64,000 nt of DNA from Antennarius striatus (Eukaryota > Chordata > Actinopteri > Lophiiformes > Antennariidae). How positions within the stretch are numbered: position 1 is the first letter of the stretch; each line of letters begins with the position of its first letter. Shown piece after piece: positions 20,801 through 23,800 of this stretch. A program made the position numbers and the translations under genes. The stretch spans positions 488,501 to 552,500 of the forward strand of contig NC_090788.1 in the NCBI RefSeq assembly GCF_040054535.1. Reading direction: 5' to 3'. The notes beneath the pieces are model-generated. The model did no database searches and had not been told where the DNA came from. It saw nothing but the letters and a program-made list of their open reading frames with translations.

Positions 20801-23800
20801 GGTGTGTGCGGTGATTTAATGGTGATACCTATGGTGATTGATCAATAACTGTCCATAACAGTTTGATTGATGGATGATGTCACGATGTCTGTCACCTGTT
20901 GTTACCCTGTAGGTGGAGCCCAAAGACGTGATGGTGTGTTTGACCACCAGAACTCTGATCACGCGTGGAGAAAGCGTCGCCACGCCGCTCAGCGTGGAGC
21001 AAGGCCTGGACGTCAGAGACGCATTTGTCAAGGTGCCAGAACCAGTACCAGTATCCAAACCAGCATCAGTACCAGTATCCATACCAGCAACAGTATAAGT
21101 ATTTATACCAGAACCAGTACTAGTATCCATACCAGTACAATACTAGTACTAGTATCCATACCAGTACCAATACCAATACCGAAATCTATACCCGTATCTA
21201 CAGTGACACCAATATCATTATCTATGTTTATGCCAGACCAGTACCAGCACCATTACCAGTATCAGTGCTGTTTGTCGTGTCGCTCTGACTTCCTGTAAAG
21301 GTGGCGCTAACGCGTTCTCACTGACCACGAGGTTCTTCTTCAGGGGATCTACGGACGGCTGTTCATCTGGATCGTGGATAAAATCAACGCTGCCATTTAC
21401 AGACCGCCAACATCCGAGAGCAACGCCATCCGCAGGTCCATCGGGTTGTTGGACATCTTTGGCTTTGAGAACTTTATCGTCAACAGGTGAATTAGATCAC
21501 ATGATCTAATTTAAAGATATTATTGGTCCATTTATCCGGGAAATCTCTTCCTACCATCACCGCCTACCTACCGACTGTTGGTTCTGACTCGTCTCTGCAG
21601 CTTTGAACAGCTGTGCATCAACTTCGCCAACGAGAACCTGCAGCAATTCTTTGTTCGACACGTCTTCAAGCTGGAGCAGGAGGAGTACAACCTGGAGGAC
21701 ATCAGCTGGCAGCACATCGAGTTCACGGACAACCAGGAAGCCCTAGATATGATCGCCAACAAACCCATGAACATTATCTCCCTCATCGACGAAGAGAGCA
21801 AGTTCCCAAAGGTAGGACAAAGAGAGCAAGTTCCCAAAGGTAGGACAAAGAGAGCAAGTTCCTAAAGGTAGGACAAAGAGAGCGAGTTCTCAAAGGTAGG
21901 ATGAGGAGAGCAAGTTTCCAAAGGTAGGAGGAAGAGAGCAAGTTCTCAAAGGAAACATGAATAGAGCAACTTCCCATAGGAGGAAGAGAGCAAGTTCCCA
22001 AAGGTAGTGGAGGTGTCCATCGTTAGTCTCGTTTGTTGGGTATAGGGAGGTGCTGGACTGGTTCTGCTCTGTGTGACTTCTTGTTTCTTTGTGTTTGGTC
22101 ATCAGGGAACCGATGCCACGATGTTGTACAAGCTGAACTCACAACACAAGCTCCACTCCAACTACCTCCCTCCTAAGAACAGCTACGAAACCCAGTTTGG
22201 TATCCAGCACTTTGCTGGGGTGGTGCATTACGAGACCAGAGGTTTGTTCTCTTCTGTGTTGTCATGTTTTATCCTCCGTCTTCTCTCCATCCTCTTCTTC
22301 TTCACCTAATGGACTTCCCATGGAACCCTGGAAGCCCCCAGGATGTAACCCTAATATCTCCAACCTTTTTGTCTCTTTGAAAACCAATGGACCAGAACCA
22401 AGAGTTCCGTATTGTAGGAGTGTATTTCTATCTGTGACCAACCTCACGGTGTTTCCCCTGCCTTCTTTCCTCAAGGCTTCCTGGAGAAGAACCGAGACAG
22501 CCTCCACACCGACATCATCCAACTCGTCCACTCATCCAGGAATAAGTTCATCAAGCAGATCTTCCAGGCTGACGTTGCCATGGTGAGACGACAAATACTG
22601 TAATACCACCAGATGTTTGCTAGCAAGGAAGTAGTTGATGGCAGACTAATGTGTCCATCTTTGTTTTGAGTCTCTCAATGATGATGTCACCGGTGACAGC
22701 GCCTCCCTTAGCGTTTCCTCCTCACGGCAGACTCGTCCTCTCACTCCTTCTCCTCTGTTTTCTCTCTTTCCTCTGACTTCAGTTTCTGTGTGGCTATCAG
22801 CAGCCCAGCACTCCTGCTCCAAAGGTAATCAACGGCCTTTAGGAACATAGGAAACCCTCCCTGTTCTCCTGAGTACAAATACCTCCCGCAGATAGCAGTA
22901 TCCCCTCCTCCTTTTACGTTGTTTAGCAGAAGTCAGAAGAACAAGGAATGATGGGACGTAGCATGAAGCTCCAAAAACATGAACTAGAGAACTTCTCAGA
23001 CGTCCTAAAAAGTCCTGCCCTGGCTTGACTTAAATCTATCACCGTGAACAAGATTCACTTCAAAACCAATCACCTCTTTCCCATCGAACAAAACGACACA
23101 GAATCTGTGGAGAACTTCTATAAAACAAACGCTGACCCTTTCCACTGACGTACAAATTTGGGAATTGTGGTTGGGATTTTGTGACCGCTATGATTGGGTT
23201 CTGACTATACCTGAAGACGATGAAGTCCGGTATAACAAGAAATGGTAATGGTTTATTGTCAGCATACAGCGATATACTAAGACCGGCTGTGGCTCACGAT
23301 GGGTCGTCTATGCAGCGAAGGGTCTTTTTGATCCCGGGGCGTGACGGTCTACGTGCTGAATTTTCCTCGAGCAAGAAATAGAAGTATCTGTTTGTTTCCA
23401 GTATATGCTGCAAAGTTGACTGTACCTGTTAGCATGCTGCTAGCGTTAACAACTTGAACTTGGCTCCACGCTGGTCTTTCAAGTTTTCAAGTGACTACTG
23501 GCAGCTGGTAAGTTGATGGTGGCAGGAAGTACCGTCAGCAGTCTAGTGGTGTTCCCCTGCCGAGGATACCTGTGGTGTGGATGAAGATAAATGCACCTGT
23601 CAAATGTGGTCCAGTAGTAGATAGTGAATTAGTAGTTTTATGGGTTTCTAACGTGTTTGTGTTTTCTCAGGGCGTTGAGACGAGGAAACGTTCTCCGACC
23701 CTCAGCAGTCAGTTCAAACGTTCTCTGGAGATGCTGATGAGGACTCTCAGTGTGTGTCAGCCGTTCTTCGTTCGCTGTATTAAACCCAACGAGTTTAAGA

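Follow-up and report, generated by a model that had tools for sequence, protein, structure and literature searches.

The 28-bp tandem array at the end of a myo7a coding exon in this fish is very probably an ordinary minisatellite that arose, in a repeat-dense zone at a chromosome end, from a segment spanning a splice donor by chance, and in which the exon-side donor is the one used. The analysis was carried out on one genome assembly, with donor use judged from sequence and analogy, and the window (the whole stretch of 64 kb, C13:488501-552500) is situated some 0.5 Mb into a contig of 21,987,500 bases.

The array was delimited with TRF on the 64-kb window, which gave 8.0 copies and a score of 286 for positions 21788-22007. 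Its identity at a lag of 28 was 0.786, far above the mean (0.295) and the maximum (0.417) of 5000 plain shuffles, indicating that the likeness of the copies is not due to chance; with head-to-tail copies, a unit of tens of bp and a likeness well above chance, the array classifies as a minisatellite. The myo7a model was built by spliced alignment using as query a human MYO7A protein, and yielded 46 exons in one open frame of 2178 codons; the exon models in general depend on human query proteins and on models derived from this genome. The features of the region are the following:

21601..21811, + strand: myo7a coding exon, the 11th in the model, ending in ...DEESKFPK (spliced alignment)
21788..22007, + strand: 28-bp array straddling the donor, 24 bp exonic and 196 bp intronic (TRF)
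21812..22105, + strand: host intron of the array, 294 nt
21812..21817, + strand: genuine donor GTAGGA (spliced alignment), PWM score 9.26, 83rd percentile of 222 donors (the PWM was trained on 222 donors of this genome, this one among them)
21840..21845, + strand: decoy donor +28, AAG/GTAGGA like the genuine donor; premature stop at codon 549 if used
21868..21873, + strand: decoy donor +56, AAG/GTAGGA like the genuine donor; premature stop at codon 534 if used
21896..21901, + strand: decoy donor +84, AAG/GTAGGA; in frame, but with a stop at codon 534 within the extension
21924..21929, + strand: decoy donor +112, AAG/GTAGGA like the genuine donor; stop at codon 534 if used
21952..21957, + strand: dead copy GAAACA
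21980..21985, + strand: dead copy GAGGAA, after which comes the 24-bp step
22004..22009, + strand: weak decoy donor +192, GTAGTG, at the 24th percentile; its use would give a stop at codon 534
22106..22241, + strand: next myo7a exon (GTDATM...) (spliced alignment)

The exon ends as SKFPK/GTAGGA, its last base being 21811, and the array's first unit consists of the last 24 nt of the exon followed by GTAG. Seven further copies of the unit follow this exon copy, in agreement with the original prediction of seven downstream repeats of the exon end and its GTAGGA donor, and its count of five GT and two GA copies was also reproduced (GT after 21839, 21867, 21895, 21923 and 22003; GA after 21951 and 21979). 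The predicted unit length of 28 bp corresponds to the TRF period and to all the steps between copies except the final one, which is 24 bp. The exon had been numbered 12, whereas it is coding exon 11 of the 46, so that the number holds only when a non-coding first exon is included; likewise, the four junctions proposed for the decoys (21839, 21867, 21895 and 21923) all precede a GT, but the fifth GT, at 22004-22005, was missing from that list. The consensus unit holds 13 G or C out of 28, and the six intronic units that were compared with it showed 0 to 8 base differences.

The nine-base motif of the genuine donor is repeated exactly in four of the seven downstream copies, while one copy holds a weaker GT and two are dead. 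Since four decoys equal the genuine donor in motif, motif strength cannot select the exon-side donor, and a search for an RNA structure that might hide the decoys gave a predicted pre-mRNA fold that was not unusual (z 0.47). Use of any of the five GT decoys would bring in a premature stop, at codon 534 or 549 in the model of 2178 codons; a working gene therefore needs the exon-side donor and should mostly splice there. By analogy with the human system described below, splicing most likely starts from the exon-side donor and passes over the downstream copies. The earlier suggestion that decoy donors are tolerated fits the finding of four exact nine-base decoys in an otherwise intact 46-exon frame.

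The closest known system is intron 7 of the human coagulation factor VII gene (F7), for which one report describes 37-bp repeats in variable number, the first copy holding the genuine donor and the downstream copies being highly homologous to it, with only the most upstream donor normally used, a preference attributed to oriented scanning (PMC6627357, citing Borensztajn 2006). As in that description, the first copy of the myo7a array spans the genuine donor, with 24 bp in the exon, and the downstream copies hold donors of equal strength, identical in the nine-base motif in 4/7. The unit differs (37 bp versus 28 bp), as do the gene and the animal, and the two arrays are likened by description and not by sequence. 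The myo7a array is thus a donor-straddling minisatellite as in F7, of a kind already known and ordinary in origin, and we infer by analogy that the F7 rule, by which only the most upstream donor is used, would apply to it. A literature search of partial coverage returned, among the matches listed, no title on this fish array.

The companion array on the opposite strand also straddles a donor:

9639..9895, - strand: capn5 28-bp array straddling the donor of exon 9879-10072, 9.2 copies, eight CAG/GTACCY decoys (TRF)

It starts inside the exon, with an overlap of 17 bp. Two of its decoys, +84 and +168, are in frame and free of stops, and would add 28 or 56 residues, so that on sequence grounds the array could lengthen the protein through these donors; the evidence for an RNA fold that hides the capn5 decoys was weak (z -1.90, with 4 of 100 shuffles folding as well). 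A shared origin of the two arrays was rejected, because their units look unrelated by eye, as the original prediction had held. Their common length of 28 is weak evidence for such an origin: units of this length were among the commonest (4/54 arrays with at least 3 copies, in the window and nine contig-end pieces), although the probability that two random arrays share a unit length was only 0.027. Microhomology at the founding duplication, judged by eye only, consisted of GGCCCC on both sides in capn5, and none was evident in myo7a. The two arrays are each a natural experiment on how a donor is chosen, with donors that differ mainly in position: myo7a presents five donors with the same motif, and capn5 presents nine donors, eight of them with the same motif. 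The oriented-scanning rule could be tested with them outside mammals, in this fish.

The exon copy of the myo7a array encodes the conserved DEESKFPK. A myosin VII-like paralogue on C7 (L032), with 54.9% identity to this myo7a over 1152 aligned columns, shows a corresponding exon end; its junction falls at the same codon and is followed by an 83-bp intron without the array. The conserved exon copy and the array-free intron of the paralogue together indicate that the exon end was likely the source of the units and that the array is local; judging from this comparison, the intron most likely predates the array. No junction was found within one codon of the site in the 25 loci that covered it (conventional-myosin model, overlapping loci counted apart). 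Another report (PMC4974935) describes the gain of introns through tandem duplication of a segment carrying AGGT, a process that resembles the present case in that the duplicated segment carries a splice-site motif; it differs in that the myo7a intron is also found in the paralogue, and nothing was gained. A newly gained intron was rejected for this same reason.

We infer that the array derived from the exon end, grew by slippage or unequal exchange and was tolerated by selection. The founding 28-bp segment would have happened to span the myo7a exon end and the first intron bases. A tandem duplication at that place would spare the coding sequence and the first donor, the extra copies landing downstream, in the intron; as the first donor and the exon are left in place, a duplication across a donor is tolerated. 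A duplication across an acceptor, on the other hand, would place an additional AG ahead of the exon, and selection would act against it. Thereafter the array would have expanded, through slippage or unequal exchange, and drifted.

The window is located in a minisatellite-rich zone, near a contig end and denser in arrays than the interior: it contains 42 TRF arrays with a unit of at least 8 bp, which occupy 11.2 of its 64 kb. Six readable 10-kb pieces at up to about 0.7 Mb from contig ends held 3-9 arrays each, with 4.5-41% of their sequence in arrays and a GC fraction of 0.41-0.56, against 0-5 arrays, 0-2% of the sequence and a GC fraction of 0.38-0.415 in nine interior 10-kb pieces; the difference (6 vs 9) was significant by the Mann-Whitney test for the number of arrays (P 0.002) and for the bases in arrays (P 0.0008). 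Contig ends were assumed to be chromosome ends, and three N-bearing pieces were scaled by their readable bases. The test was performed without a seventh end piece that was all N (L040) and without L033, a piece of 7 kb that lies 0.9 Mb from a contig end and consists mostly of one open frame, which had no arrays and which, counted as an end piece, would weaken the contrast; L049-L051 were added later and stand outside the test.

At the level of introns, the 56 of myo7a and capn5 (17.7 kb of intron) are touched by 18 arrays, compared with two arrays for the 166 introns (27.1 kb) sampled from other myosin genes, which lie 1.9 Mb or more from any contig end. The latter set was restricted to introns with both flanking exons of at least 6 codons and at least 40% identity to the query, and constitutes a limited sample, mostly of one gene family; one step of the analysis omitted L001, L002 and L033. 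The occurrence of two donor cases in 15 kb is explained by this high local density. Human GC-rich minisatellites also cluster at chromosome ends, according to one report (PMC3486850), and the human subtelomeric arrays CEB1, CEB25 and HRAS1 described there resemble the myo7a array in their position near a chromosome end, in their dense neighbourhood and in a unit of tens of bases, which in HRAS1 is also 28 nt. The myo7a unit, however, is not GC-rich (13/28) and overlaps an exon, so that the likeness is one of location only.

The original prediction had read the two cases within 15 kb as suggesting a local mechanism (slippage or break repair at exon-intron junctions) or tolerance of decoy donors. 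A placement test was performed in which each intron was collapsed to one unit per array and the unit was dropped anywhere overlapping the intron. Among the 18 arrays of the window, four overlapped a donor by at least 1 bp (2.04 expected, P 0.13), two by at least 5 bp (1.62 expected, P 0.49) and two by at least 10 bp (1.08 expected, P 0.30). A pool of 29 arrays (18 from the window, eight from three contig-end myosin genes, two interior and one from rsf1) gave four versus 3.38 expected (P 0.45), two versus 2.78 (P 0.80) and two versus 2.03 for the same thresholds. The test left out one of the 19 arrays in the myo7a and capn5 spans (wholly exonic, 26193-26249), two of the ten in L049-L051 (one of them exonic, the other beyond the gene model) and three of the four that the rsf1 model places in introns, of which one lies in a poorly delimited first intron and two are probably coding. 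The model of L049 is poor, and spurious introns are present among the 17 modelled for rsf1. Window arrays with at least four copies overlapped a donor by at least 10 bp in 2/8 cases (0.53 expected, P 0.09), an excess that was not significant. Acceptors were never straddled, with 2.04 cases expected for the 18 window arrays and 3.18 for 28 arrays. The absence of straddled acceptors, together with a donor-side lean of the array starts that is lost once an acceptor zone is excluded (see below), forms the pattern that selection predicts. Thus, on this sample rather than the whole genome, overlaps with donors were no more frequent than chance given the array density, from which the closeness of the two cases also follows; this is the outcome that the original prediction had named as speaking against it. 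A mechanism acting at exon-intron junctions is not supported, and none is needed for the two arrays. What appears as a striking pair of coincidences is explicable by the local minisatellite density together with a rule by which duplications are tolerated at donors and not at acceptors.

A preferential birth of duplications at donors, through co-transcriptional breaks or R-loops at exon-intron junctions, would account for the start of 10 of the 18 intronic arrays of myo7a and capn5 (3711-34431) between -24 and +26 of a donor, and for the donor-side lean of the window array starts (Wilcoxon P 0.012, 18 arrays, no guard). The lean was lost when a 50-nt acceptor zone, a guard chosen by us and not a measured value, was placed off limits (P 0.47); moreover, donor overlaps matched random placement and none of the eight arrays in three other contig-end myosin genes straddled a donor (the L049 model among them being poor), which makes this explanation quite unlikely. 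False expansion of repeat copies during assembly, to which repeats are prone, would not give intronic units that lie 0 to 8 bases off the consensus if a single copy had been expanded, and a genome search found the array at one place alone; an artefact is exceedingly improbable.

Two further readings give the decoys a function. If they were under selection as a splicing control, some transcripts would use them, reach a premature stop and be destroyed, tuning the output of myo7a; the stops that follow from every GT decoy agree with this, as does the donor ten-mer, with 0/50 sites changed in the first five intronic units against 10/90 changed elsewhere (Fisher P 0.014). This cut at five units was chosen post hoc and we build nothing on the result, since adding the sixth unit gave 4/60 changed sites versus 14/108 (P 0.30); two of the seven copies are dead, the pre-mRNA fold is ordinary, and youth or conversion by neighbours accounts for the likeness of the units, and we consider such control highly improbable. 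The broader proposal, that chromosome-end minisatellite turnover seeds arrays of equal-strength donors which the fish uses, for unproductive splicing in myo7a and for optional extensions of 28 or 56 residues in capn5, is judged very unlikely; if decoys were in use, a change of copy number would act as a switch of isoform or dose. An ordinary chromosome-end minisatellite whose exon-side donor is used is the reading that we retain.

Other arrays were observed close to splice sites or in coding sequence. Several arrays of myo7a and capn5 take up the greater part of a short intron. Most of a myosin intron is likewise filled by a 28-bp array with 54 copies in L051 (172-1683, 0-based start), which stops 2 nt short of the exon, and by a 36-bp array in L050 (reverse strand, 2154-2273), which begins 8 nt past the donor and stops 4 nt short of the exon. 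In these introns the branch and pyrimidine regions would be repeat-derived. In the window, a 32-bp array with 12.9 copies (44535-44948) starts 31 nt past a modelled rsf1 donor, and a 30/60-bp array (41545-43025) lies where the sequence reads like lysine-rich coding DNA of what we take to be an rsf1-like gene, and is perhaps a coding repeat. The L033 piece (G000 C19, about 0.9 Mb) carries at 903-6794 an intronless myosin heavy chain frame of 1934 residues from the first Met, which matches the myosin head profile at 2-679 with no stop, and looks like a retained retrocopy.
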